Of a stretch of 64,000 nucleotides of DNA, positions 49,345 to 64,000 are shown in pieces. The stretch comes from Actinomyces oris (GTDB lineage: Bacteria > Actinomycetota > Actinomycetes > Actinomycetales > Actinomycetaceae). The position numbers were made by a program, and so were the translations under genes. Positions within the stretch are counted from its first letter, which is position 1; each line of letters begins with the position of its first letter. The stretch lies in NCBI RefSeq assembly GCF_006546825.1, contig NZ_VICC01000006.1:496001-560000 (forward strand). Direction: 5' to 3'. A model generated the notes under the pieces. The model worked only from the letters and a program-made list of their open reading frames with translations. It made no database searches and had not been told where the DNA came from.

Positions 49345-49792
49345 TCACTTGCCGCGCTCGGCCAGGAAGGTCAGCAGGAGGCGGCGCTGGAGGTCGAACA
49401 TCTCCTTCTTCTCCTCGGGCTCAGCGTGGTCGTAGCCCAGGAGGTGGAGGATGCCGTGGACGGTGAGCAGGAGCATCTCCTCGACCGCGGAGTGGCCGGC
49501 GGCCAGGGCCTGCTTGGCGGCAACCTGCGGGCACAGGACGATGTCGCCCAGGGTGCCGGCGGGGGTGGGCGAGTCGGCTGAGCCGGGACGCAACTCGTCC
49601 ATGGGGAAGCTCATGACGTCGGTGGGGCCGGGCAGGTCGAGCCAGCGCACGTGGAGCTCTTCCATGGGCTCGGGGTCGATGAACATGATGTTGAGCTCGG
49701 CGGCGGGGCTGACGTGCATGGCGGTCAGGACGTGGTCGGCGAGGGCCGCGAACTCGGCGGCGTCGATGACGGTGGTGGTCTCGTTGATGACC

Positions 49793-49803
<11 letters not shown>
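49345..49803 (-). CDS. ybeY: Endoribonuclease YbeY (rRNA maturation)
   Basis: Zinc metalloprotein needed for 16S rRNA 3'-end maturation and ribosome quality control. 152 residues with the [21 protein letters not shown] metal site (three His) and [14 protein letters not shown], both highly conserved. ATG 49803 overlaps the phoH end by 11 bases. Operon position phoH-ybeY-corC-era is the standard actinobacterial cluster. Confidence 0.96.
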
Positions 49804-50986
<1,183 letters not shown>

Positions 50987-51129
50987 CTCGGGGCCCATGC
51001 TACCGGCCAGGGCGCGGCGGACCAGTCGGTGTTGTGGCAACCGGACTCATCCCCACCGCTGCGTTCAGGGGAAGTGACATACCGAGGCCGGTCGATGTGG
51101 TGCGTTCCAATGGCTCCGTCCGGATCGGC

Positions 51130-51135
51130 TAGGGT
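51130..51135 (+). promoter_or_regulatory. Probable -10 of the BREX operon promoter
   Basis: TAGGGT ends 62 bases before the brxA start. A -35 candidate (TTCCAA at 51105-51110, 19-base spacer) is weak. It lies between the divergent phoH and brxA genes, which are 211 bases apart, so any BREX control should lie in this gap. Confidence 0.4.
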
Positions 51136-51197
51136 TGCCCCATTGTTCAGCGGCAGCGAAGCACGCGATCAGGAAGTGCGAAGCGGGTGGTGTTGTA

Positions 51198-51821
51198 GTG
51201 ACCGGCGATCTTAGCGCCGTAGTGACGATCTCTGAGCCGTACCGGCTGTCCTTCGCGTTGGGCGGTCTCCTGGCGACGGAGGCCATGGTCGCTGCTCCCC
51301 TGTATCTGGAACTGTGTGACTGGGCAGCAGTCCGGAAGGCGTTGGATGCCGACAACCTGCTGCATGCACGTACCCGCTCGACGGCGGTCAGGCTCACCCG
51401 CGAGCTCATTCAGCGGTTGTCTGTGCTCAGCGATACCGAAATAGCCTATCTGGTCACCGCTCCAGGGCCGGAACGTCTGCATCTGATGTGGGCAGCGATG
51501 TGCCGGCATTATGCATTCGTGGCGGAGTTCGCTCAGGATGTGGTGCGCGACCACTTCCTGCTGGGGGTCTCGCAGCTGCTTCCGGCCGACTTCGAGCGAT
51601 TCTGGGACTCCAAGGCCCTGTGGCACGCGGAGTTGGAGGAGACCAGGCCCTCAACTCGTAACAAACTGCGCACCAACCTGTTTCTGGCGTTGCGCCAGAG
51701 CGGCATGCTCGCCGATGACGCCACGATTATCTCCCCGCTGCTGTCGGCGGAAGTGTCGGCGCTCCTGGATGCGCGCACGCCCAGCGATCGACGTTTCTTC
51801 CCTGTAGGAGGCGGCCTGTGA
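51198..51821 (+). CDS. brxA: BREX protein BrxA (DUF1819)
   Basis: First gene of a type 1 BREX phage-defence operon. 207 residues, mostly helical, matching DUF1819/BrxA in length and character (RLSFALGGLLATEAMVAAPLYLELCDWAAVR, RLTRELIQRLSVLSDTEIAYLV, HYAFVAEFAQDVVRDHFLLG). BrxA relatives are small DNA-binding proteins required in some BREX systems. GTG 51198 with a weak GGGTGG site is the likely start; the open frame continues 21 codons upstream to a TTG. Its stop overlaps the brxB start (GTGA). Confidence 0.88.
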   Translation: MTGDLSAVVTISEPYRLSFALGGLLATEAMVAAPLYLELCDWAAVRKALDADNLLHARTRSTAVRLTRELIQRLSVLSDTEIAYLVTAPGPERLHLMWAAMCRHYAFVAEFAQDVVRDHFLLGVSQLLPADFERFWDSKALWHAELEETRPSTRNKLRTNLFLALRQSGMLADDATIISPLLSAEVSALLDARTPSDRRFFPVGGGL

Positions 51822-52432
51822 GCGACGATGACATCGCTTCTGTTGAGCAGCATGTGCTCGCTGTGCTCTCGTCTGACCGGTTCCTACGCATGGAGGGGCT
51901 GGGCAACGAGGTGCCATTCTTCATCTGGCCCTACCCGCCCGAGCAGGAGCTTGAGGTGCAGTCGGCGAATAGCCGTATCGTTGACAGGCTGCGTACCACA
52001 CGCGGTCTGAACGTCCTCGTGGTGGATCTCTTTGAGCTGGCCGTTGAGCTGCTTGAAGGGCGCGGCGGCAACATGCTGGAACGCCTGGAGCAGATCGAGC
52101 CCACCCGCAGCCGCTCTGCCTTCCGCCGGGACTTGCAGCGCATGCTTGATCCGGAGCAGCACATCGTCCCCGCTATCGAGCGTCGTATCGAGGCCGAGGC
52201 TGGCGTCGACCTGCTCGTGCTGACCGGAATCGGGCGAGTGTTCCCCTTTATCCGCTCACACAACGTTCTGAACAACCTGCAAGTCGCCGTCCCTGACTTC
52301 CCTGTGCTCATGCTTTTTCCAGGCGAGTACTCGCAGACGGCGTCATTGGGGTCATCTCTGGTGCTGTTCAACCTCTTGACGGATGACCAGTACTACCGTG
52401 CCAAGAACGTTCTGGAACAGGAGCCAGCATGA
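51818..52432 (+). CDS. brxB: BREX protein BrxB (DUF1788)
   Basis: 204 residues of DUF1788: EVPFFIWPYPPEQELEVQSANSRIVDRL, NVLVVDLFELAVELLEGRG, LLVLTGIGRVFPFIRSHNVLNNLQ and PVLMLFPGEYSQTASLGSSLVLFNLL. The last blocks are highly characteristic. BrxB is required for BREX defence but its molecular role is undefined. GTG 51818 and the end (ATGA into brxC) show translational coupling on both sides. Confidence 0.92.
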   Translation: MSDDDIASVEQHVLAVLSSDRFLRMEGLGNEVPFFIWPYPPEQELEVQSANSRIVDRLRTTRGLNVLVVDLFELAVELLEGRGGNMLERLEQIEPTRSRSAFRRDLQRMLDPEQHIVPAIERRIEAEAGVDLLVLTGIGRVFPFIRSHNVLNNLQVAVPDFPVLMLFPGEYSQTASLGSSLVLFNLLTDDQYYRAKNVLEQEPA

Positions 52433-55400
52433 GCCAGATGATGATTGGTGATCTCTTTGCCAAGGACGTCTCCCGCGCCATCGAGGGAGTCATCAAGGCC
52501 GACGACGCCAAGCATCTCGCCACCGAGATTGACGAATACGTCCTCACCGGAGAGACAGCGGCAGCCCTGTCCGAGCTGTTGGAGACCTACACTGATCCCG
52601 TCTACAACGGCGGCAACGGTGTGTGGATCTCGGGTTTCTTTGGTTCCGGTAAGTCGCACCTGCTCAAGATGCTGGCCTTCCTGCTGGGTGATGTGCCCGG
52701 ACGGCTCAGCGCCAGGAAGGACGCAACGGACGCCTTCAAGAAGAAGGCCGAGGCAGAGAAGGATGCCTTCCTGCAGGGCAAGCTCACTCAGGTTGAGCAC
52801 ATCCCGGCCACCTCCCTGCTGTTCAACATCGATCAGAAGGCGCCCCTGATCGATAAGAACCAGACCGACGCCCTCCTGCAGGTGTTCGTGAAGGTGTTCA
52901 ACGAGGCACGGGGCTACTACGCGGGCGAGCCGTCGGTGGCCCGCTTCGAGCGAGACCTGGATCGGCGCGGTCTGCTTGAGGACTTCCAGCAGGTTTTCTC
53001 CCAGATCGCCGGCGTCCCGTGGGAACAGGGCCGGGAAGAAGGGATTCTCCAGGAGCACAACGTCACAAGGGCGTTCTCAGAGGTGACCGGCGAGCCGACT
53101 TCCGAGAGCATCCTGTCCCGCTATGAGGAGCAGTACTCCCTATCCATTGAGGACTTCGCCGATGAGGTCGCCCAGTGGCTGGAGGCTCAGCCTGAGGGGC
53201 ATCGCCTGTTGTTCATGGTGGACGAGGTTGGCCAGTTCATCGGCTCCAACACCAAGCTCATGCTGAACCTGCAGACGATTGTGGAGACGCTGAGCACGCG
53301 CTGCAACGGGCGCGCTTGGGTGTGTGTCACCAGCCAGGAGGACATGGATAGCGTCATCGGGGATCGGACTAGGACCCAGGGCAACGACTTCTCCAAGATC
53401 CAGGCCCGCTTCGCCACACGCATGAAGCTGACGAGCCACGACGTGGAGGAGGTGGTCAAGAAGCGTCTGCTCAGTAAGAACGCCGACGCCGAGGCCGCTC
53501 TCGATCCGCTGTACGACGAGTTCCACACAAGTTTCCGCGCCCTGTTCGATTTCGTCGATGGCTCCAAGACGTACCGCAACTACGACACTCGGGACAGGTT
53601 CACGCAGGTCTACCCGTTTGTGCCCTACCAGTTCCCCTTCTTCCAGACGGCCTTGGTGGGGCTGTCTGAGCACAACGTGTTCGAGGGCCGGCACGCCTCG
53701 GTGGGCGAGCGCTCGATGCTGGGGGTGGTGCAAGATGTCGCCACACATTTGAAGGAGTCCACGGTCGGCGCAGTCGTGTCCTTTGACGCCATGTTCACCG
53801 GAATCCGGCAGGCGGTGAAGTCCGCCGCTACTCGCAACATTGCGACGGCAGAGTCGCAGCTTCCGGAGGGGCCGGTGCGGGACGTGGCGGTCCGACTGCT
53901 CAAGGCGCTGTTCCTGGTGAAGTATGTGGGTGACTTCTCCGCCACCCCACGCAACCTGACTGTGCTCCTGTACAACCGTTTCGGCCAGGACCTCACCGAG
54001 CTGAACAGGCAGGTTTCCCAGGCACTCGACCTCCTGGAGCAACAGACCTATGTCCAGCGCAATGGCTCGGTCTACGAGTACCTGACCAATGAGGAACAGG
54101 ACATCGAGAACGAGATCAAGAGCACCGACGTCGACTCCACGGAGATCTCCAAGCTCTTGGCCTCCGTCATCAATCAGGACGTGGTCCGGGGTACCTCAGT
54201 GCGTCATTCGGTCACGGGTCGGGACTTCAAGTACCAGTTGCTGCTGGATGAGATCTCCTACAGCCGGGCGCAGCTGCTGGCGGTGCACTACATCTCCTCC
54301 GCCCTGGGCTTGTCTCGTGAGGTCGTTGTGGCCCAGTCCATGGGGCGTGACGAGCTCAGGGTGGTGCTGGCAGACGATGCTCGGATGTATCAGGATCTGC
54401 GGTTGCATGTTCAGACGGATAAGTACGTCCGGCTGCGTGCGGGCTCGTCTCTGACCGATTCTCAGAGCCATATTCTCGATTCCAAGAAGCGGCAGAACAG
54501 CAAACGACGCAAGGAGCTGACCGCACGCGTCAAGCAGGCCATCAGCGACGCTGAACTGATCATCGGTGGGGCGTCGATTGCCGTGTCCTCCTCGGATCCG
54601 GTGCAGCGTGTGCAGGAGGGTCTGGAACAGCTGATCACGCGCACCTACCCGTATCTGTCGTTGCTCGGTTCCATCCAGTACTCGGAGTCGGACATCGCCC
54701 GGGTGGCGAGCGATGATCCGGCTCTGCTGGACCGGAGTACGGATACGCTTCAGCCTCTGGCCGAGGAGATCCACACCTGGCTGTCCTCCCAGCGCGCGCT
54801 GGGTGTGAGGACCACCGTCAAGCAGGTCGTCTCCTACTTCGAGGGCAAGCCCTATGGGTGGACCTTGCCGAGTATCCTGTGTGCCCTCGCACGCTTGGCC
54901 GCTACCTCACGGGTGTCCATGACGCTCGATGGGAGCACTGTGAAGCGTACGGAGCTTCCCGCCGTGCTGCCCGTCGGTAAGAAGAAGCACGAGGCGATCG
55001 CGGTGGCCCCGCAGCGCAGCTTCGACGCTGCCCGGGTCAGTGGACTGCGAAACTTTGCCCGGGAGTTTTTCGCCACTGGTCAGCTTCCGAATGATCCTTT
55101 GGAGCTGGCCGACGACGTGAGGACACGGTTCGAGGATGAGTATCGGACGCTGAAACAACAACAGGACACCTTCGTCAACATTTACCCCTTCCTGGCTGCA
55201 CTGAATGCACCGTTGACGCTGATCCGGGAGGTGATGGGGCGCGAATCCGAGTGGTATCTGGACCAGTTCTCCGCCCACACCGACGATCTGTTGGACGCGA
55301 AGCAGGATGTGATCGATCCCGTCACCCAGTTCCTGAACGGCAGTCAGAAGACCATCTACGACGAAGCCGTGCACCTGTTGTCCGAGCGCAAGGACACTCT

Positions 55401-55956
55401 CCGCTATCTGAAGACGGATGAGGCGAGCAGAGTCGAGTCGCTGCTGGCCGATCAGAACATCTTCCGAGGGCAGCGGATGAGGCATCTGAAGGACGCCGCC
55501 GGCGAGCTGCGCGCCGCCACGGACCGGATCCTGGCAGACGAGCGGGCTGAGGCATCCGATCTCATCGGCGAGCGCGCGAACGATCTGCGCCGCAGTGCCG
55601 CCTGGGAACATGCCACCGACGCCACTCACACGAAGGTTAACCGCAGAATTGACGTGGCCACGCAGCAGGTGGTTGAGGCTGTCTCGGTGCCAGTGATTCG
55701 CCAGCTCGCCCGTGAGTTTGACGAGGAGAGCTATGACGAGCTGCTAGCGGCTCTGGAGGCAGACCGCCGCACAGCGGAGAACAATGCCGAGACCAGCACA
55801 CCAACTCCCCCTGCACCGATAGTGGTTCCGCTCAGGCAGTTGCCCCATCCGCGTAAGCGCATGCTGCGCACCCCCGCCGATGTTGATGCCTACATCGATG
55901 AGTTGCGGGGCATCCTCCTCCAAGCGGTCGACTCTGGAAAGCAGGTGTCCCTGTGA
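52429..55956 (+). CDS. brxC: BREX ATPase BrxC
   Basis: Large P-loop ATPase of type 1 BREX, 1175 residues. Walker A is WISGFFGSGKSHLLKML near residues 67-80 and Walker B is LLFMVDEVGQFIG near 260, with ACVTSQ-like sensor text (WVCVTSQEDMDSVIGD) after it. The rest is helical with long coiled stretches. BrxC works with PglX and PglZ to recognise and block incoming phage DNA. ATG 52429 overlaps the brxB stop, and its end overlaps pglX (GTGA at 55953). Base composition is somewhat lower in GC than the housekeeping genes to the left. Confidence 0.94.
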   Translation: MSQMMIGDLFAKDVSRAIEGVIKADDAKHLATEIDEYVLTGETAAALSELLETYTDPVYNGGNGVWISGFFGSGKSHLLKMLAFLLGDVPGRLSARKDATDAFKKKAEAEKDAFLQGKLTQVEHIPATSLLFNIDQKAPLIDKNQTDALLQVFVKVFNEARGYYAGEPSVARFERDLDRRGLLEDFQQVFSQIAGVPWEQGREEGILQEHNVTRAFSEVTGEPTSESILSRYEEQYSLSIEDFADEVAQWLEAQPEGHRLLFMVDEVGQFIGSNTKLMLNLQTIVETLSTRCNGRAWVCVTSQEDMDSVIGDRTRTQGNDFSKIQARFATRMKLTSHDVEEVVKKRLLSKNADAEAALDPLYDEFHTSFRALFDFVDGSKTYRNYDTRDRFTQVYPFVPYQFPFFQTALVGLSEHNVFEGRHASVGERSMLGVVQDVATHLKESTVGAVVSFDAMFTGIRQAVKSAATRNIATAESQLPEGPVRDVAVRLLKALFLVKYVGDFSATPRNLTVLLYNRFGQDLTELNRQVSQALDLLEQQTYVQRNGSVYEYLTNEEQDIENEIKSTDVDSTEISKLLASVINQDVVRGTSVRHSVTGRDFKYQLLLDEISYSRAQLLAVHYISSALGLSREVVVAQSMGRDELRVVLADDARMYQDLRLHVQTDKYVRLRAGSSLTDSQSHILDSKKRQNSKRRKELTARVKQAISDAELIIGGASIAVSSSDPVQRVQEGLEQLITRTYPYLSLLGSIQYSESDIARVASDDPALLDRSTDTLQPLAEEIHTWLSSQRALGVRTTVKQVVSYFEGKPYGWTLPSILCALARLAATSRVSMTLDGSTVKRTELPAVLPVGKKKHEAIAVAPQRSFDAARVSGLRNFAREFFATGQLPNDPLELADDVRTRFEDEYRTLKQQQDTFVNIYPFLAALNAPLTLIREVMGRESEWYLDQFSAHTDDLLDAKQDVIDPVTQFLNGSQKTIYDEAVHLLSERKDTLRYLKTDEASRVESLLADQNIFRGQRMRHLKDAAGELRAATDRILADERAEASDLIGERANDLRRSAAWEHATDATHTKVNRRIDVATQQVVEAVSVPVIRQLAREFDEESYDELLAALEADRRTAENNAETSTPTPPAPIVVPLRQLPHPRKRMLRTPADVDAYIDELRGILLQAVDSGKQVSL

Positions 55957-58900
55957 TTGATACCCGGACCTTGGAGGCCTTCGCCGCCTCAGCCCGGTCC
56001 CAGCTCATGGCGGAGGTTGAGGCTCGCCTCACGGCAGTACTCTCCCCGGCATCGACGGCGCGCGAGGAGTTCCCGAGTGCGATCAAGGCACTGGAGAAGC
56101 GCATCCGCCATCACGGCGGTGACGCGGCCGGCCGACGGCGGGTCGTGGAGGAACAGGCCTATGTCTGGTTCAACCGGATTGTTGCGCTACGGTTCATGGA
56201 TGCCAACGGCTACACGTCCCCAGCGTTGGTTTCCCCGGACGGCGGGGCAACAGTGGGCCAGCCGGCGGTGCTTGCCGCCGCCAAGAGGGGCGAGTTCGAT
56301 CAGCAGGTCTTCAGCCCGACTGAGCGCATCACCGGCCTACTGAACGGCACGATCACGAGTCCAGCTCCGCAAGAGGAGGCCTATGGGCTGCTCCTGCGCG
56401 CATACTGCGCCGCCTGGAACCGGATGATGCCGTTCATGTTCGCCCCCGACGGTGACTACACCACCTTGCTCATGCCCGCGGACATGCTGGCCGACAGCTC
56501 TGTGCGCGCGCAGGCGGTCAGAGCGCTGACCGCAGAGATGTGCCGGGACGTGGAGGTCATTGGCTGGCTGTACCAGTTCTACATCGCTGAGCGTAAGGCC
56601 GAGGTCTTCGCCGGCTTCCGAAAGAACCAGAAAGCCGGCGCGGCTGAGATTCCAGCGGCGACACAGTTGTTCACCCCGGACTGGATCGTGCGCTATCTGG
56701 TGGAGAACTCGGTCGGCCGCCTGTGGATGCTGAACCATCCGACCTCTCGTCTGATCGAGAAGATGGACTACTACGTCGAGCCCTCCAGTAGCGAGACCGA
56801 CTTCCTCCGGATCACGGAGCCGGAGCAACTGACGGTCATGGACCCGTGCTGCGGCTCAGGTCACATGCTTACCTACGCCTTCGATCTTCTCTACGCCATC
56901 TATGAGGAAGAGGGCTACGCACCCTCAGAGATTCCCACACAGATTCTCACGCACAACGTATTCGGCACGGAGATCGACCCACGCGCCGCAGCACTGGCCG
57001 CCTTCGCACTGATGATGAAGGCTCGGGCACGTCAGCGTCGCTTCCTACGCGACCCCGTGCTACCAAACATCCAGGTCATCGAGCCAGTGGAGTTCAATGC
57101 AACGGAACTCGACCAACTTGCTGGCACCGAAGCCGTTACTCAGGCAGACCGGTACTTCTGGCAGAGTTTCATTCACGCCGATGTGCTGGGCTCCCTCATC
57201 GCCCCGGACGCCGCAGCGCTGCTCGGCGCAAAAGAGCGATTAACCTCGATCATGACTGACACCCTGGACGTCTCGGGTCTGAACTCTCGCGCTGAGCAGG
57301 TAGTGGTGCAGGCGGAGTACCTGACCCGGTCCTACGCGGTGGTGGCGACGAACCCACCGTACATGGGCAGCAGAAACATGGGATCGATGCTGTCCACCTG
57401 GCTGAAGAAGCACCACCCACAGGCGAAATCCGACCTGTTCGCAGCCTTCATCGAGCGGTGCCTGCAGCTTGCCGACGCCGAGCACGGCCTGGTCGCCATG
57501 ATCACCATGCAGGCATGGATGTTCCTCGGCTCCTTTGAGAAGCTGCGCCGTCACATCCTGCGTGACGCCCCACCAACGACCATGCTGCATCTGGGCGAAC
57601 GGGCCTTCGACTCGATCGGCGGGGAAGTTGTCTCCACGACGGCCTTCGTTCTGGAGCACGCGCGCAGCACTGGCGAGGTCTGCGAGTATGTCCGGGCAGT
57701 ACCCGGCAACTCCGAGGCCGAGAAGGAGCACCTGCTCAGGGACGCCCTGACAGGCGCTTCCGACCTTCGGTTCTCCGCTCGCCCTCACACACTGCTTGCG
57801 CTCCCTGGAGCACGACTCGCCTACTGGCTGTCGCCAGCCATGACGCGCGCCTTCACCGAGGGCAAGCCACTTGGCGAGGTCGCCGCTCCAAAGCAGGGCC
57901 TGGCGACAACTAACAATGCACGGTTTACTCGGTCATGGTGGGAGGCGCCTATTTCGTCAATCGGCATCGGGTACACCAGAGACAACGCAAACTCGTCGCA
58001 ACTCACCTGGTTCCCTTACAACAAAGGAGGAGAATTCAGAAAATGGTACGGAAATCAGACCCTCATCGTCAATTGGTTTGCCGACGGACTGGAAATTCGA
58101 AATACAATCATCAACAAGTACCCATACTTAAATGGCAATTACGAGTGGGTAGCGAAGAACATGGAGGCCTATTTCAACACTTCGGTTTCATGGTCAAAAA
58201 TTAGCAGCGGCACGCCCGCATTCCGACTATATCCACAAGGTTTTGTGTTCGACGTCGCCGGCACCTCAGTGTTTTCCAATATCGAAGATACGAGGCTCGC
58301 TCTCTTGTCGTTCTGTAACTCACAAATCGCAGAACGAATGTTGACGGTTCTTGCACCCACTCTAAACTACGAAGTGGGCCAGATTTCTCAACTACCAATC
58401 ATCGACCAACAGTGTAATGACAGTTTGCTGTCGACTGCGAAACAGCTTGTCCAAGAGTTCCGAAACGACTGGAACACCTACGAGACCTCATGGGACTTCA
58501 AGTTCAACCCGCTCGTCAAGCATGCTCACCTGGGAGGCTCGTTAGCAGACGCACTGGAGCGCTGGTGGCAGGACTCTCTCAGCGCTGCGCATGAGGCCCA
58601 GGAGCTTGAGACCGAAAACAACCGCTATTGGGCTGAGGTCTACGGCCTTCGGGATGAGGTTCCCATTGAAGTTCCGCTGAGCCGGGTCTCGCTGACCTCC
58701 AACCCCTACTTCCGCTACGTACCCAACAAGGGCGCCACGCGCACGGACGAGGAGTATCGCCGCCTCTTCACGGCGGATGCCGTCCGCGATCTCATCTCCT
58801 ACGGCGTCGGCTGTCTGTTCGGCCGTTACAGCCTTGACACTCCTGGCCTCGTGCTCGCCGATCAGGGCGACACCATTCAGGACTTTCTCGACATGGTTCC

Positions 58901-59546
58901 ACGACCGAGTTTCACCCCCGATAAGGACGGAGTCATCCCCATCACATCCGGCGAATGGTTTGCAGACGACATTGTCACTCGATTCCGCTCCTTCCTCGCA
59001 GCCGCTTTCGGCAAGGAGCACCTTGAGGCAAACCTGCGTCTGATTGAAGACTCATTGGGTAAGTCGCTGCGACAGTACTTTGTGAAGGACTTCTATAGAG
59101 ACCATTGCCGTCGTTACTCCAACCGGCCGATCTACTGGATGGTCTCCTCCCGACCCGACAATAAGGCCTCCTTCCAGGCTCTGATCTACCTGCACCGCTA
59201 CACGCCGGACACGCTGAACACGGTGCTCGGTGACTACCTGAGGGAGTTCCAGGCAAAGCTGCGCACTGAGATCGGCCACCTGGAGCGATCCAAGACGGCC
59301 GCCGACCAGAAGCGCGCTGACGCCTACCGCAAGGCGCTGACCGAGTGCGAGGACTACGAAAGGGATACTCTGTTCCCCCACGCATCTCGTCGACTGTCTA
59401 TCGATCTTGATGACGGCGTCTTGGTCAACTACCTCCGCTTCGGTCAAGCGCTCCAGAAGATCCCCGCCATCGAGAAGAAACGACGCGACGTCCAGACCTG
59501 GACCTGGCCGACCAACCAGCTCACCTCCGAGGATGGCTTCAAATGA
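55953..59546 (+). CDS. pglX: BREX adenine-specific DNA methyltransferase PglX
   Basis: Site-specific N6-adenine methyltransferase that marks host DNA and gives BREX its sequence specificity. 1197 residues. SAM motif I is TVMDPCCGSGHMLTYAFDLL near 292-310 and catalytic motif IV is ATNPPYMGSRNMG near 465-477. The stretch from about residue 650 to 845, the expected target-recognition part, is clearly poorer in GC: a hand count of 58081-58140 gives 23 of 60, against 40 of 60 at 56041-56100 in the same gene. That suggests a swapped specificity module. GTG 55953 overlaps the brxC stop and the end overlaps the next gene. Confidence 0.94.
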   Translation: MIDTRTLEAFAASARSQLMAEVEARLTAVLSPASTAREEFPSAIKALEKRIRHHGGDAAGRRRVVEEQAYVWFNRIVALRFMDANGYTSPALVSPDGGATVGQPAVLAAAKRGEFDQQVFSPTERITGLLNGTITSPAPQEEAYGLLLRAYCAAWNRMMPFMFAPDGDYTTLLMPADMLADSSVRAQAVRALTAEMCRDVEVIGWLYQFYIAERKAEVFAGFRKNQKAGAAEIPAATQLFTPDWIVRYLVENSVGRLWMLNHPTSRLIEKMDYYVEPSSSETDFLRITEPEQLTVMDPCCGSGHMLTYAFDLLYAIYEEEGYAPSEIPTQILTHNVFGTEIDPRAAALAAFALMMKARARQRRFLRDPVLPNIQVIEPVEFNATELDQLAGTEAVTQADRYFWQSFIHADVLGSLIAPDAAALLGAKERLTSIMTDTLDVSGLNSRAEQVVVQAEYLTRSYAVVATNPPYMGSRNMGSMLSTWLKKHHPQAKSDLFAAFIERCLQLADAEHGLVAMITMQAWMFLGSFEKLRRHILRDAPPTTMLHLGERAFDSIGGEVVSTTAFVLEHARSTGEVCEYVRAVPGNSEAEKEHLLRDALTGASDLRFSARPHTLLALPGARLAYWLSPAMTRAFTEGKPLGEVAAPKQGLATTNNARFTRSWWEAPISSIGIGYTRDNANSSQLTWFPYNKGGEFRKWYGNQTLIVNWFADGLEIRNTIINKYPYLNGNYEWVAKNMEAYFNTSVSWSKISSGTPAFRLYPQGFVFDVAGTSVFSNIEDTRLALLSFCNSQIAERMLTVLAPTLNYEVGQISQLPIIDQQCNDSLLSTAKQLVQEFRNDWNTYETSWDFKFNPLVKHAHLGGSLADALERWWQDSLSAAHEAQELETENNRYWAEVYGLRDEVPIEVPLSRVSLTSNPYFRYVPNKGATRTDEEYRRLFTADAVRDLISYGVGCLFGRYSLDTPGLVLADQGDTIQDFLDMVPRPSFTPDKDGVIPITSGEWFADDIVTRFRSFLAAAFGKEHLEANLRLIEDSLGKSLRQYFVKDFYRDHCRRYSNRPIYWMVSSRPDNKASFQALIYLHRYTPDTLNTVLGDYLREFQAKLRTEIGHLERSKTAADQKRADAYRKALTECEDYERDTLFPHASRRLSIDLDDGVLVNYLRFGQALQKIPAIEKKRRDVQTWTWPTNQLTSEDGFK

Positions 59547-61942
59547 CTAAAACTTTGATCCGCAAAGTCGAGAGGATCAAGAACTACCGTATCTTCCAGA
59601 ACTGGCAGCCAGACGGTGGCGTTGAGTTCGCCCGGGTCAATCTCATTTACGGCCAGAATGGAAGCGGCAAGAGCACCTTCGCGAGCCTCCTGGCAGGCTG
59701 TGCTGCGAACGCAACTGCCGAATCCGAGTCCCGCGGCGATGGCAATGACGAGGCCAGTGCCGGCTTGCAGCTGCTTGCGACCCACGATGCAGGGAACTCT
59801 TTTTTCCAAATCGGCTTGGACGATCGTGAATTTTGGAGTCGAGTGCGAGTATTCAATAAAGATTTCGTTCACAGAAGCCTTCGGTTTGAGGAACCAAACG
59901 GGCCATCTCCTGAGGCACTCCTGACTATAGGTAAAAAACTCGCAGACGCTGCAGAAAAGCTCGAAGAGCTACGCCCTCAACTTGATGAGGCACGACAGAA
60001 ACTCGCTACCGCGAACACCACTTGGACAACAACAAATAATACCATAAATAACCGATCTAGTGATATAGCAAGGCAGGTCACAACTGACCTTTCTGGCGCA
60101 CCCGGCTTCAACCCGCGCAGTTACGACCGGAGAAATGTCAAGAGACTTCTCGACAGTTTCGATAGCGACCCGACAGTCTTGGCGGCCGATACAACGAATC
60201 TGCTTGTTGATCGTAAAATTGCAACAGGTCATGCGATGCGGCCAGTTCCCCTCCAACCTCGGGGAACTTTGCTGGAACAGGAGGTTCTTGAAGACGCACG
60301 TGCACTACTATCGGCAAACATCTTGAGCAACATGCTCATCGGAGAACTGGTGGGACACTCAGACCGGTCCAAGTGGGTTCAGGAAGGCATCATTCTTCAC
60401 AACCACTTGGAAAAGTGTCTGTTCTGCGGTCAGGAACTTACCTCCGATCGACTCAAAGCCCTTAACGCGCATTTCGACGAGTCGTTCAAAAAGCTCCAGA
60501 ACGGCATCGACAACCTCATATTCCGCCTACAAAACTCGGAGGCAACGTCAAAGGGTTACCTGGACGCATTTCCCGCCCGATCTGAGATATATGAGGACTT
60601 GCATGAGAAACTGCTGAGCTCCCGAGAAACCTATGAGGCAGAACACAAGGTCTACGCCGACACAATCCACTGCATTGTGTCAGCCTTGAAAGAGAAGAGA
60701 GAGAATCCCTTTAGTATTCCAGCCCTCAGTTCGAACCTCGTTCTGACAGCTCCGAGCGTTTCTGCTCTCAATTCGATTGTCGGCATGCATCAGGCAAGGA
60801 TCGACCACCATGATGCCGAGGCGATCGAGGCAGCCGAACGCGTTAAACACTACCACGCGAGGAGCTTCTTAGATGAATATAAACAACTCAAAGAAAACCT
60901 TAAGCTGCAGAGGGTGGAGATAAATCACCAAAAGGACACGGTGGAGGACCTCGAACGGCAGATTACCACTCTGGAAAACGTGGATGGCGACCCCGTCCCA
61001 GGAGCCGAGGAACTCACCAAGGGCCTGACTGGCCTCTTGGGTCGCAATGAACTGACTTTTAGTGCCCACGGAGCGAAGCACTACGCCATCAAACGAGCCG
61101 GAGCGCCCGCCACCCATCTCAGTGAGGGGGAACAGACCGCCATTGCCCTGTTGTACTTCCTCTCGAGTGTCAGAAAGGACAAGATCGCGGGGGATCCTCC
61201 GATCGTCGTCATCGACGACCCGGTCTCCAGCCTCGATCAAGGCATTCTTTTCGGTGCCTCCGCTCACATATGGTCGGAGCTAGTCGTCAACACCTATGCC
61301 AGCCAGGTTTTTGTTTTAACCCACAACTTTGAGTTCTTCCGTCAGTGGCTCATCCAGATGGAAGCCGTACCAAAGAGCCGACGTGAGGGAGGGTACAAGG
61401 CTTATCGGATTTGCGCTCACGTAGACGACCATGGTCGACGTAGGCCTGTATTCGAGGTTTGGGAACTCGACGATGATCGACGGAAGAAGCTGCGTTCTCA
61501 GTACCATTTCCTCTTCGACCAGGTCGCAACTACTCTTAAAGAATCTGACAGAGACCTCGACTCGATAGCCCAGATGGAAGCAGCCGCCCTGGTGCCCAAC
61601 ACGGCCCGTAAGCTGTTGGAAGGCTTTTTGAGTTTCCGCACACCCGCAAACATGGGAAAACTGCACAACTCCGTACGTGCCGCCCTTGATGCGCGTCCAG
61701 GACTGGATGACTCGGTGCGCACGATGGTTGTGCGGTACGCTCACGCAAACTCGCACCTAGAGGAGGCAGACCCGACGAAGCCGCTTGAACCGAGTGAGTC
61801 AGTGCCTTTTCTGCATGCACTGTTCACGTTTATGGACCATGTGGACAGTGAGCATTTCACTTCAATGTGCCAAGCACTCGGACATGATCCGGAGGTATTG
61901 CTGGGCACTTCGTCCTCGACAGCAGAAGAAGCTCCGGCATGA
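59543..61942 (+). CDS. AAA_13/RloC-like ATPase, candidate anticodon nuclease, inside the BREX operon
   Basis: 799 residues. Walker A GQNGSGKST is at 37-45, the signature LSEGEQTA near 525, Walker B PPIVVIDDPVSSLD near 552-565, and the LTHNFEFF switch near 591: an SMC/Rad50-type split ATPase. The helical insert carries KCLFCGQ (Cys292, Cys295), like the zinc hook of RloC. The C-terminal part has Arg689-x3-Glu693 and Arg731-x6-His738 (RYAHANSH), the residue types used by PrrC/RloC anticodon nucleases; their exact alignment is unverified. It is coupled to pglX and the next gene by 4-base overlaps. Parts have low GC (25 of 60 at 60001-60060). Nuclease function is inference. Confidence 0.8.
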   Translation: MTKTLIRKVERIKNYRIFQNWQPDGGVEFARVNLIYGQNGSGKSTFASLLAGCAANATAESESRGDGNDEASAGLQLLATHDAGNSFFQIGLDDREFWSRVRVFNKDFVHRSLRFEEPNGPSPEALLTIGKKLADAAEKLEELRPQLDEARQKLATANTTWTTTNNTINNRSSDIARQVTTDLSGAPGFNPRSYDRRNVKRLLDSFDSDPTVLAADTTNLLVDRKIATGHAMRPVPLQPRGTLLEQEVLEDARALLSANILSNMLIGELVGHSDRSKWVQEGIILHNHLEKCLFCGQELTSDRLKALNAHFDESFKKLQNGIDNLIFRLQNSEATSKGYLDAFPARSEIYEDLHEKLLSSRETYEAEHKVYADTIHCIVSALKEKRENPFSIPALSSNLVLTAPSVSALNSIVGMHQARIDHHDAEAIEAAERVKHYHARSFLDEYKQLKENLKLQRVEINHQKDTVEDLERQITTLENVDGDPVPGAEELTKGLTGLLGRNELTFSAHGAKHYAIKRAGAPATHLSEGEQTAIALLYFLSSVRKDKIAGDPPIVVIDDPVSSLDQGILFGASAHIWSELVVNTYASQVFVLTHNFEFFRQWLIQMEAVPKSRREGGYKAYRICAHVDDHGRRRPVFEVWELDDDRRKKLRSQYHFLFDQVATTLKESDRDLDSIAQMEAAALVPNTARKLLEGFLSFRTPANMGKLHNSVRAALDARPGLDDSVRTMVVRYAHANSHLEEADPTKPLEPSESVPFLHALFTFMDHVDSEHFTSMCQALGHDPEVLLGTSSSTAEEAPA

Positions 61943-63435
61943 GAGAATATTTTTCGCTCGGAGCAGATGGGCGCCTTGCAGACCACGAGAGTAAGACCCT
62001 CGAGGTCAAACGCGATCTGTCGTCGCCCGACGGTCCGCTGCGGACGATCGTTGCCTTTGCGAACTCGGCGGGCGGGCGGCTCGTCATCGGGGTCACAGAC
62101 GACGGTACGGTCGTCGGCGTCGATGACCCGCTCGCCGAGGAGGAACGCATCGCCAGCCTCATCGACGACCGAATCTCGCCCCAGCTGGTGCCTGCCATCG
62201 ACCTAGTGACATTGAGAGACAAGACGGTCCTCATTGTCGACGTGCCGCTCAGCACTCGTCGCCCGCACCACATCACCTGTCTGGGACCGGAAGCCGGCGT
62301 CTACGTACGCCTCGGTTCCACCACACGGCAAGCAGACCCGGCACTCGTTGCCGAGTTAGAGCGCAATGCCCGCGGCATCGCTTTCGAAGGCCTGCCCGAG
62401 CCACGCGCCATATTTGAGGATCTGGATCTGGAGGTCCTTTCCAAGCTGCGCGGACGCAGCACGTCCGTCGCCGACCTTCTGGCACTCGGCCTCGCCGTCC
62501 AACAGGGAGACCAGATCGTCCCCACCAATGCGGGCATCCTCGCAGCCTGCCCCGATCCCACACGCTTTCACCCCTCCGCCTGGGTCCAGTGCGGCCGCCT
62601 GCGCGGCCCGCACGGCACAGACATCTTCGACCAGACCGAGATTCACGGCCCCATGCCACTCGCAGTCGACTGTGCCGTGGAGTTCTTGCTCAAACACGCC
62701 TACAAGACCGCGGTGTTCGGCGAGGTGCGGCGCCGCGACATCTACTCAATCCCCATCGAGCCGATCCGCGAAGTGATCGTCAACGCCCTTGTGCACGCCT
62801 CCTACGCGGAACGCGGCACGCCCATCAGGGTCGGCTTCTACGACGACCGCATTCAGGTGGACAGCCCGGGTTTGCTGTTGCCAGGCATGACCATCGACAC
62901 GATGCGACGCGTATCCCGCCTGCGCAACCCCGCCCTCGCGCGCATCTTCCGTGAGGCCGGGATCATGGAGCAGTGGGGCACCGGCGTCCAGCGTGTCTTC
63001 GAGCAAGTGGCCGAAGCCGGCCTGCCCGAGCCCATCATCGAAGAGATCCAGGACCGAGTGAGGGTGACGATCTACATACCCAACCACGATCCACAGCAGG
63101 CTACCGCGCACGGCGCTCGAGAACCGGAAAGCGAGGCGCAGAAGCCAGAGGATCATAACCACCCAGAACATACCTACACACATAGCAATGTCGGTAGGTA
63201 TGATGTGGTTATGATGCGGGCAGCCGCTCAGGGGCCGGTTCACCGAAACGCTCTCCTGGAAGCCGCTGACCTGAAGCCCCTGTCACAGAACTACACGCGT
63301 CACGTGGTTCCACTGGTGAACCGAGGGCTGCTCGCCATGACGGTACCGGACAAGCCCCGCAGCAAAGCACAGCGGTACATCCTGACGGACGAGGGCCGAG
63401 CCTACCTGCGCCACCTCACGGAAGACTCCGAATGA
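61939..63435 (+). CDS. AlbA_2 (Schlafen-like) DNA-binding / HATPase / winged-helix protein in the BREX operon
   Basis: 498 residues in three parts. Residues about 15-130 are an AlbA_2 domain (ESKTLEVKRDLSSPDGPLRTIVAFANSAGGRLVIGVTDDG). Residues about 270-370 are a GHKL-type ATPase remnant as in RecG-like/HATPase_c_4 proteins (PIREVIVNALVHASYAERGTPIRVGFYDDRIQVDSPG, IFREAGIMEQWGTGVQRVF). Residues about 410-498 look like a winged helix (VHRNALLEAADLKPLSQNYTRHVVPLVNRGLL). A polar linker with a His/Tyr/Thr-rich end joins the last two, and its DNA holds a strong inverted repeat. Such proteins occur as accessory genes in restriction and BREX loci; the role may be regulatory. ATGA overlaps on both sides. 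Confidence 0.85.
   Translation: MREYFSLGADGRLADHESKTLEVKRDLSSPDGPLRTIVAFANSAGGRLVIGVTDDGTVVGVDDPLAEEERIASLIDDRISPQLVPAIDLVTLRDKTVLIVDVPLSTRRPHHITCLGPEAGVYVRLGSTTRQADPALVAELERNARGIAFEGLPEPRAIFEDLDLEVLSKLRGRSTSVADLLALGLAVQQGDQIVPTNAGILAACPDPTRFHPSAWVQCGRLRGPHGTDIFDQTEIHGPMPLAVDCAVEFLLKHAYKTAVFGEVRRRDIYSIPIEPIREVIVNALVHASYAERGTPIRVGFYDDRIQVDSPGLLLPGMTIDTMRRVSRLRNPALARIFREAGIMEQWGTGVQRVFEQVAEAGLPEPIIEEIQDRVRVTIYIPNHDPQQATAHGAREPESEAQKPEDHNHPEHTYTHSNVGRYDVVMMRAAAQGPVHRNALLEAADLKPLSQNYTRHVVPLVNRGLLAMTVPDKPRSKAQRYILTDEGRAYLRHLTEDSE
63152..63215. repeat. Two-part inverted repeat inside the AlbA_2 gene
   Basis: ATCATAACCAC (63152-63162) pairs with GTGGTTATGAT (63205-63215), and CATACCTAC (63169-63177) pairs with GTAGGTATG (63194-63202). 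Both pairs are perfect and nested around a 16-base loop, with unequal internal spacers (6 and 2 bases). It lies in the linker between the HATPase and winged-helix parts and reads through in frame. Confidence 0.75.
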
Positions 63436-64000
63436 ACACCATGACAGCCATCCTGCGCCAGCTCAGCGAGCGCTTCGAGCGTCCCGGCGAAGCCGGGCGG
63501 ATCGTCATCTGGTCGGACCCCGAAGGCAGATACACCGACTCGCTGGATACCTTCTCCCTCCCGGACGTCACCGTGCTGCGGGTGGAAAACAACGAGTTCG
63601 CCCTGAAGCGCCGGGTCTTACTGACCGAATCGAAGCGCAAGTTCCTGCTCTACCGCTTCCGCGAGCCAGACACCCCGGAAACCGTCACCGACAACTGGCT
63701 CAAGGACATGGAGCTCGCTTACGGGACCTTCACCGCGGACCACACCTCGCTCCTGGTGCAGGAGCTCGGGGGCGGATCGGCGCTGCGTAGCGTCGTCGCT
63801 CAGTACCCGCTCTTTTTCGACAGCGGGCAGCGCCGCGACGAGCTCAAGGCCCGCCTGCGCCCGGATGACGACGCTGCCGCCATCGCCGCCTCCATGGTCG
63901 CCGTTGTGCTGGGCACTGAGGAGCGCTCGTTGGAGGCGCTCTGGCGGGCACTGCTGATGGAGAACGCGGACGGGGAGTCCACCGGCATCGATACGATCAC
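63432..64000 (+). CDS. pglZ: BREX protein PglZ (alkaline-phosphatase superfamily), 5' part
   Basis: N-terminal 189 residues of the type 1 BREX PglZ, cut by the window edge. The start is typical: QLSERFERPGEAGRIVIWSDPEGRYTDSLDTFSLPDVTVLRVENNEFALKRRVLL, then KFLLYRFREPDTPETVTDNWLKDMELAYGTFTADHTSLLVQELG. The metal-binding phosphatase core lies beyond the edge. ATG 63432 overlaps the previous stop (ATGA). brxL would be expected next. Confidence 0.9.
   Translation, partial: MNTMTAILRQLSERFERPGEAGRIVIWSDPEGRYTDSLDTFSLPDVTVLRVENNEFALKRRVLLTESKRKFLLYRFREPDTPETVTDNWLKDMELAYGTFTADHTSLLVQELGGGSALRSVVAQYPLFFDSGQRRDELKARLRPDDDAAAIAASMVAVVLGTEERSLEALWRALLMENADGESTGIDTI

Follow-up and report, generated by a model that had tools for sequence, protein, structure and literature searches.

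The stretch of Actinomyces oris DNA analysed here (the window: 64,000 nucleotides of contig NZ_VICC01000006.1, assembly GCF_006546825.1) carries a complete type 1 bacteriophage exclusion (BREX) operon in which pglX and pglZ are separated by two extra genes, the first encoding an RloC-like AAA_13 protein and the second an AlbA_2/Schlafen-like protein. Type 1 BREX systems are characterised by methylation of a 6-nucleotide (nt) site and by phage exclusion. We think, with a probability of roughly 0.6, that the two extra genes encode self-contained back-ups, which would stop protein synthesis when a phage passes BREX. About as firmly, we regard the pair as cargo to which BREX would supply a promoter, a place and possibly a trigger, without a leash and without a fixed complex. 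As the extra genes come and go, exchange domains and can outlast BREX, they are likely independent back-ups rather than parts of one machine.

The gene set brxA, brxB, brxC, pglX, pglZ type A and brxL is complete and in that order (Table 1). The whole pglZ product in the genome of the window (G000, contig C6) has 844 amino acids (aa) and scores 646 bits with TIGR02687 (cut-off 270). A first-pass annotation had read the order brxA-brxB-brxC-pglX-[AAA_13]-[AlbA_2]-pglZ with 4-base overlaps throughout, and open reading frames (ORFs) and family matches agree with this order; all six junctions indeed overlap by four bases, with the sequence GTGA or ATGA, and the seventh, pglZ-brxL, is a 9-nt gap. 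That the pair belongs to one transcription and translation unit holds in the sense that, judged from these overlaps, both genes appear embedded in it. A scan for promoters and terminators gave counts near those of shuffled sequence (4 versus 2.3, standard deviation 1.6; 9 versus 9.0). The annotation had further suggested from the coupling a composite defence system of fixed stoichiometry and joint function. The six overlaps would speak for such a machine, in which RloC, AlbA_2 and BREX would depend on one another. The same overlaps are kept with other cargo, however: in genome G014, where a Shedu gene replaces the AAA_13 gene, all six junctions are 4-nt overlaps too, and in the cargo-free G209 the three core junctions also overlap by 4 nt, with +2 nt between pglX and pglZ. 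Spacing in G058 is +14 nt for brxC-pglX and +10 nt for pglX-AlbA_2. Since 4-nt overlaps recur with unrelated cargo, they mark one operon and not one machine, and they are not special to the inserted pair.

The content of the pglX-pglZ interval was compared across 213 genomes from the family of the window, 28 of which have a PglZ match; the 22 with a type A match over the cut-off form the census, and the six below it were excluded. RloC and AlbA_2 together are recognisable in 4/22 (G000, G028, G011, G078), which belong to two genera, so that the pair is not confined to a single strain; both genes are intact in two of these, AlbA_2 being in three pieces in G011, and G078 having an AlbA_2 remnant and a pglX split over two frames. 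AlbA_2 occurs without RloC in 6/22, intact in G058, G199, G014 (after Shedu) and G050 (after a 142-aa ORF), broken in G025, where no pglX was found, and as a remnant in G093. Other defence genes occupy the interval in 8/22: RhuM in four (G145 by Pfam and PADLOC, with no pglX found; G144, G150 and G171 by tblastn, 81-89% identity), a HEC-01A/HEC-01B-like pair of AAA_21 ATPase and DUF4276 protein in two (G149, and G142 with the second gene by tblastn only), Fic in G094, and a DUF1016/YhcG nuclease next to an RloC remnant in G179, where no pglX was found. The interval is empty in three genomes (G128, G209, G210) and runs to a contig end in G116, where it is unreadable. Besides AlbA_2 and the 142-aa ORF, each scanned occupant has a strong PADLOC match to a defence or candidate family, and wherever AlbA_2 has a neighbour (RloC, Shedu or the small ORF), the neighbour adjoins pglX and AlbA_2 adjoins pglZ. 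The interval is thus a variable cargo site. The 142-aa ORF in RloC's place in G050 (L118:6989-7445) has a hydrophobic N-terminus and no match in a Pfam scan, the only scan applied to it. Inverted partial copies of pglX (approximately aa 481-860) lie beside pglX in G128, G144, G150, G171 and G199 (L124, L125, L128, L129, L131), and an inversion switch of BREX specificity is possible there.

The modules were also examined at sites where BREX has decayed or is absent. Among the 213 genomes, 14 have an RloC match at E 1e-60, and eight of these form the clade of the window (54-100% identity): four lie in a BREX interval, one is the G179 remnant, two (G006, G045) lie between BREX scars, and in G040 a stop interrupts RloC, and 20 kb of sequence there showed no BREX gene. 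In G006, a brxA fragment and a pglX tail are followed by an intact RloC and an intact AlbA_2 gene that keep their 4-nt overlap; about 23 codons of the pglZ start can be read by eye after AlbA_2, where tblastn gave no hit. In G045, RloC is intact and AlbA_2 broken, and fragments of brxA, pglX, pglZ and brxL remain. The AlbA_2 search returned 24 genomes at E 1e-50, eight of them with PglZ over the cut-off. In five of the 24 (G004, G006, G012, G043, G045), all without PglZ, the gene lies beside BREX scars, and in 11 no BREX trace was detected (up to 8 kb on each side; tblastn, 1e-4). In G012 and G043, AlbA_2 directly follows a homologue of the BREX upstream region (81% over 86 nt), the intervening genes being gone, and precedes the last brxL codons. 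Each module is therefore found without intact copies of the others, the modules are independent, and RloC and/or AlbA_2 outlast the loss of BREX core genes.

Neither fixed stoichiometry nor an obligatory joint function is thus borne out, as the interval content varies, each gene is lost independently, and RloC and/or AlbA_2 persist without PglZ. The shared gene order in 4/22 genomes and the joint survival of the pair in the G006 scar fit a composite machine, but with all three modules occurring without intact copies of the others we consider it very unlikely. A toxin-antitoxin pair, in which AlbA_2 would neutralise RloC, could be suspected from the adjacent genes and their 4-nt overlap; it is rendered highly improbable by genomes with intact RloC and broken AlbA_2 (G011, G078, G045) and by AlbA_2 being commoner than the RloC clade (24/213 at E 1e-50 versus 8/213 at 54% identity or more).

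Several points weigh against the view that the extra genes stand on their own. The absence of PglZ in the scar genomes was tested genome-wide, and that of the other BREX genes within the fetched stretches only. The scars were located by searching for the cargo, so that cases in which the cargo is lost and the core kept are under-counted; two such cases are G093, in which AlbA_2 is reduced to a remnant while the pglX tail, pglZ and brxL are still there, and G179, which has an RloC remnant next to a retained pglZ and brxL. Moreover, the scars may be recent, and intact ORFs in them are then no proof of selection.

More distant relatives were also surveyed. Across the class, PglZ was found in 5/394 genomes at E 1e-40 and AlbA_2 in 3/394 at E 1e-60, the genome of the window included in both, and the other two AlbA_2 proteins have 46-47% identity. 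A search with a single RloC sequence found no relative, and an alignment-based scan, which may leave out genomes very near the window, gave at least 80 AAA_13 loci of 21-38% identity. None of these matched the six BREX proteins of the window (tblastn, E 1e-8; flanks of at most 10 kb, many contigs being short). In two of the loci, from Spirochaetia and Patescibacteria metagenome-assembled genomes (L070:4813-12232, L094:415-3512), AlbA_2-type matches lie upstream of the AAA_13 gene on the same strand, without BREX, and the two genes may be partners elsewhere too. Distant RloCs of 31-33% identity are found in G155, G095 and G153 within approximately 5 kb of a type I hsdR gene and in G054 next to an MmeI-like gene, and a further distant RloC-type AAA_13 gene (L124:633-2822; 729 aa, PF13166 375 bits) lies downstream of brxL in G128.

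The AAA_13 protein has all sequence marks of RloC, the wobble-excising anticodon nuclease. It combines a Rad50-like ABC ATPase head with a coiled-coil arm, a CxxC zinc hook (C292-X2-C295) and a C-terminal nuclease part, the zinc-hook/coiled-coil insert splitting the ATPase, and its 799 aa lie inside the RloC size range of 658-897 aa. Long arm helices are predicted at residues 131-183, 301-341, 351-387 and 407-478. RloC proteins are recognised by an R-X3-E-X36-52-H triad, often with Ser before the His (PMC2610378), and the corresponding R689-X3-E693-X44-H738, with S737 before the His, is kept in 100/100 aligned sequences. With regard to a HEPN-type fold of the nuclease part, H738 is invariant in the 100 sequences, and position 731 carries R in 78 of them and K in the other 22. 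A structure search with the model recovered the Rad50-like head; the matches cover residues 2-654 and so stop short of the nuclease part, which must be counted against the proposed function. The anticodon nuclease activity of this RloC is accordingly a prediction from its motifs. PADLOC gives PDC-S06 450 bits, AriA 43 bits and PrrC 23.8 bits. PrrC itself was rejected as an identity, since PrrC proteins have 341-416 aa and no hook (PMC2610378), and the PrrC-type setting, linkage to a type Ic restriction-modification (R-M) system, is replaced here by BREX. A PARIS-like pair of ATPase and nuclease was discarded as well: the AAA_13 protein has a nuclease triad of its own, and its partner matches neither TOPRIM nor AriB.

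The arm and the nuclease part of RloC have been exchanged independently of each other, with sharp breakpoints. Compared with RloC of G011, the protein of the window is 88% identical in the head, 79 and 73% in the arm and 88% in the C part of the ATPase, and only 38% in aa 601-795; compared with A. oris P0006, the nuclease part reaches 92% and the arm 42 and 59%. The same pattern is seen between P0040 and P0015, which are 88-100% identical in successive segments over aa 41-580 and 32-45% from aa 601, and between the window and P0027, which share 18-62% over the greater part of the arm and 82-100% from aa 481 onwards. When 100 sequences were clustered, five of the 21 arm clusters (aa 136-275) occurred with both main nuclease clusters, so that all ten combinations were seen. 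These rows are mostly metagenomic, and chimeric assemblies are possible among them, but restricting the comparison to the 13 rows with a genome handle or a named NCBI record leaves the contrast in place. The arm tree of these 13 joins the window and G011 at 100/100, a grouping rejected by the nuclease part (approximately unbiased test, p-AU 2.9e-5). The arm in turn rejects both nuclease clades, whose support is 100/99 and 100/100, at p-AU 1.7e-5 and 2.3e-6. The trees use plain LG+G4, both give a long-branch warning, and the clades were chosen for testing with the clustering already known. Three arm groups had been defined on aa 136-275, and two of them were lost when the tree was built from the entire arm, aa 131-470 (p-AU 0.016 and 0.015). 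The arm is thus itself mosaic, and the claim is limited to the contrast between arm and nuclease part.

The second extra gene encodes a protein with an SLFN_AlbA_2 domain (PF04326, cut-off 25.3), a GHKL ATPase domain (HATPase_c_4, PF13749) and a C-terminal winged helix (PF21247). Its model matches in Foldseek best C. diphtheriae DIP2311, then SLFN11, SLFN13 and SLFN14, and weakly the tRNase domain of SAMD9. Three acidic residues are conserved across 37 sequences (E17 in 37, E22 in 36, D54 in 36), and the spacing E17-X4-E22 equals that of E205 and E210 of SLFN13, which are reported as pivotal residues (PMC5862951); E17/E22 and D54 would then take the positions of E205/E210 and D248. The protein is thus a putative tRNase by virtue of its predicted Schlafen-type nuclease fold. 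The model is of middling quality (predicted local distance difference test, pLDDT, 71; predicted template modelling score, pTM, 0.47), and the winged helix would suit a regulator too; both points tell against a back-up nuclease. The PADLOC matches are Argonaute-linked models at 48 bits. Among 13 homologues shown of 36 aligned, six have 84-87% identity in aa 1-380 and 38-44% in aa 426-498, and another two drop from 79-80% in the body to 39-42% at the C-terminus, where five further homologues reach 75-93%. The pattern resembles that of RloC, the winged-helix end (window 63214-63435) coming in strongly differing versions on a conserved body.

As alternative to a nuclease, AlbA_2 could be a transcriptional regulator of the operon, RloC being the sole effector. 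The winged helix, its strong variation and the naming of some homologues as 'predicted HTH transcriptional regulator' are in line with this. However, AlbA_2 persists in several genomes without any detected BREX gene, the acidic Schlafen residues are conserved, the fold matches Schlafen nuclease domains, and Schlafens are listed as backup RNases of BREX (PMC12839542), so that we consider the regulator unlikely.

At the phoH-rsmE site in other genomes of the genus, an AlbA_2 gene is found and BREX core genes are absent. The gene is uninterrupted in G003, G012, G020, G023, G024, G043 and G047 and broken or partial in G026, G029, G030 and G034, and in G047, G020 and G024 it overlaps by 4 nt with a gene for a pentapeptide-repeat protein of 558-651 aa, which takes the place of pglZ; AlbA_2 and this gene possibly constitute a separate AlbA_2 system.

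How two back-ups could act in the operon can be outlined as follows. BREX would methylate self DNA and attack unmodified phage DNA. Phage DNA ends, or nicks and breaks from the BREX attack (PglZ being a nuclease), would then trigger RloC, whose Rad50-like head and arm would release the nuclease part to cut tRNA anticodons. AlbA_2 would sense a second signal via its ATPase/winged-helix part and cut tRNA via the AlbA_2 domain; translation would stop and the phage would not multiply. The shared BREX promoter would keep both effectors expressed with BREX. The outline draws on studies of other RloC proteins. The RloC nuclease is reported to be held off by its own ATPase switch, to be turned on by linear or broken DNA even when R-M is mutated, and then to cut tRNA at the anticodon; with the purified Geobacillus kaustophilus enzyme, the ATPase switches the nuclease on in the presence of linear DNA, and in R-M mutants of Acinetobacter baylyi a DNA-break inducer is sufficient to activate RloC (PMC3874168). 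PglZ is described as a metal-dependent nuclease (PMC12205998), and PglZ nicks were proposed as a signal for auxiliary effectors (PMC12839542).

Other observations make this course of events less certain. Activation by DNA breaks was shown for other RloCs and is carried over to that of the window by analogy. The authors of the RloC work leave control by R-M proteins during infection possible (PMC3874168). For the PARIS genes within Salmonella BREX, the reported tests gave no sign of protection, and their removal raised defence approximately 10-fold against one phage (PMC11341690), so that nested genes do not necessarily serve as back-ups when tested.

RloC could instead be a guard on a leash as in PrrC/EcoprrI, silenced by a BREX protein and released by an Ocr-like anti-BREX protein of the phage. 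In the case of PrrC, the linked type Ic R-M enzyme keeps the nuclease silent until Stp of phage T4 frees it (PMC2610378), and the control by R-M proteins that the RloC authors left open would fit as well. Furthermore, PARIS, which responds to Ocr elsewhere, sits in Salmonella BREX, and the RloC gene directly follows pglX, whose protein is bound by Ocr (PMC11341690). On the other hand, RloC remains intact in G006 and G045, which have lost BREX core genes, and in G078, whose pglX is divided between two frames, and this independence speaks against a BREX leash. A. baylyi RloC is reported to be neither silenced by R-M proteins nor dependent on them for DNA-break activation (PMC3874168), and Salmonella PARIS is reported to have given no response to Ocr (PMC11341690). 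We therefore hold the leash to be improbable, and retain free-standing back-ups as the preferred explanation.

The best reading with respect to known systems is that defence genes embedded in BREX are a known kind and that RloC with AlbA_2 is a new combination. The protein of the window is like described RloCs in domain plan, size, zinc hook and R-X3-E-X36-52-H triad; it differs by its place in a type 1 BREX operon and by an arm and nuclease part that are swapped independently among relatives, and its activity is predicted. BREX type 1 of Salmonella D23580 likewise has defence genes embedded in the operon, but PARIS is an OLD-type ATPase with a TOPRIM nuclease, where RloC and AlbA_2 are found here without a TOPRIM match. 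Deletion of PARIS is reported to leave methylation near wild type, and approximately 7,000 of approximately 9,000 genomes to carry genes in the pglX-pglZ interval, including BrxU and PARIS (PMC11341690). PrrC-EcoprrI is similar as an ABC-ATPase anticodon nuclease within a methylation-based restriction operon, but PrrC has about half the size of RloC, lacks the hook and is leashed by type Ic R-M, whereas RloC here persists after loss of the BREX core. Schlafens linked to BREX and related systems were reported from at least 1017 taxa in 2026, with backup effectors named (PMC12839542); here a Schlafen-like gene is in tandem with RloC instead, and the main text of that report does not contain the words RloC, PrrC or AAA_13. 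RloC-family HEPN genes were noted in 2013 'in a few instances' in Pgl operons with PglZ, PglY and PglX (PMC3710099), in passages that describe no AlbA_2 partner, cargo position or domain exchange. The same principle underlies 'guilt-by-embedding', by which candidates nested in other defence systems were collected as PDC and HEC families (Payne et al. 2024, bioRxiv, as cited in PMC12988326 and PMC12629846), and RloC of the window matches one of them, PDC-S06 in PADLOC; the present analysis contributes the combination of the two genes and the data on their independence and exchange. Titles and the starts of abstracts in the open-licence PMC literature gave no report of this combination in BREX or of RloC domain exchange.

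The BREX site is flanked by ybeY/phoH (window 49345-51198) on one side and by eamA/rsmE (L002:6183-11153) on the other. Coordinates are collected in Table 1.

Table 1. Genes of the BREX operon and related loci; positions refer to the window unless a locus (L) is given.
Feature	Position	Strand	Size and evidence
BREX upstream region	51040..51197	+	blastn of upstream regions; promoter role inferred
brxA	51198..51821	+	207 aa, GTG start; PF08849 144 bits; PADLOC BrxA 204.6 bits
brxB	51818..52432	+	204 aa; PF08747 120 bits; PADLOC BrxB 190.7 bits
brxC	52429..55956	+	1175 aa; NF033441 1091 bits (cut-off 400)
pglX, BREX-1 adenine methyltransferase	55953..59546	+	1197 aa; NF033452 1255 bits (cut-off 500)
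RloC-like AAA_13, predicted anticodon nuclease	59543..61942	+	799 aa; PF13166 408 bits; PADLOC PDC-S06 450 bits; conservation; head fold
AlbA_2/Schlafen-like predicted tRNase	61939..63435	+	498 aa; PF04326 84.8, PF13749 89.5, PF21247 32.9 bits; Foldseek
pglZ type A, first 189 codons in window	63432..64000	+	gene end at L002:3967, beyond window
brxL	L002:3977-6094, beyond window		after pglZ; 705 aa; TIGR02688 601 bits (cut-off 329)
Pentapeptide-repeat loci	L191:5710-7665, L192:2606-4282, L193:5896-7617		4-nt overlap with AlbA_2
Distant RloC loci	L154, L155, L156, L157		

A more far-reaching view, which we offer tentatively and consider doubtful as a whole, is that Actinomyces BREX serves as a chassis with a two-position effector slot, in which RloC would act as an immune receptor that recombines. 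The coiled-coil arm that senses DNA, the part that cuts tRNA and also the winged helix of AlbA_2 would be swapped as separate cassettes. Trigger and tRNA target would thereby be re-assorted, which would help to evade phage inhibitors, tRNAs encoded by phages and phage repair of cut tRNA, and the trigger of RloC would be DNA broken by BREX.

The genomes compared here amount to a natural experiment on whether the nested effectors of restriction-type operons are leashed guards or free-standing back-ups. G006, with an intact RloC-AlbA_2 pair and a deleted BREX core, and G045, with RloC alone intact, favour the free-standing view for RloC. In addition, the independent exchange of arm and nuclease part singles out two segments, and their roles, possibly in the trigger and in the choice of tRNA, are testable with natural variants such as the RloC proteins of the window and of G011.

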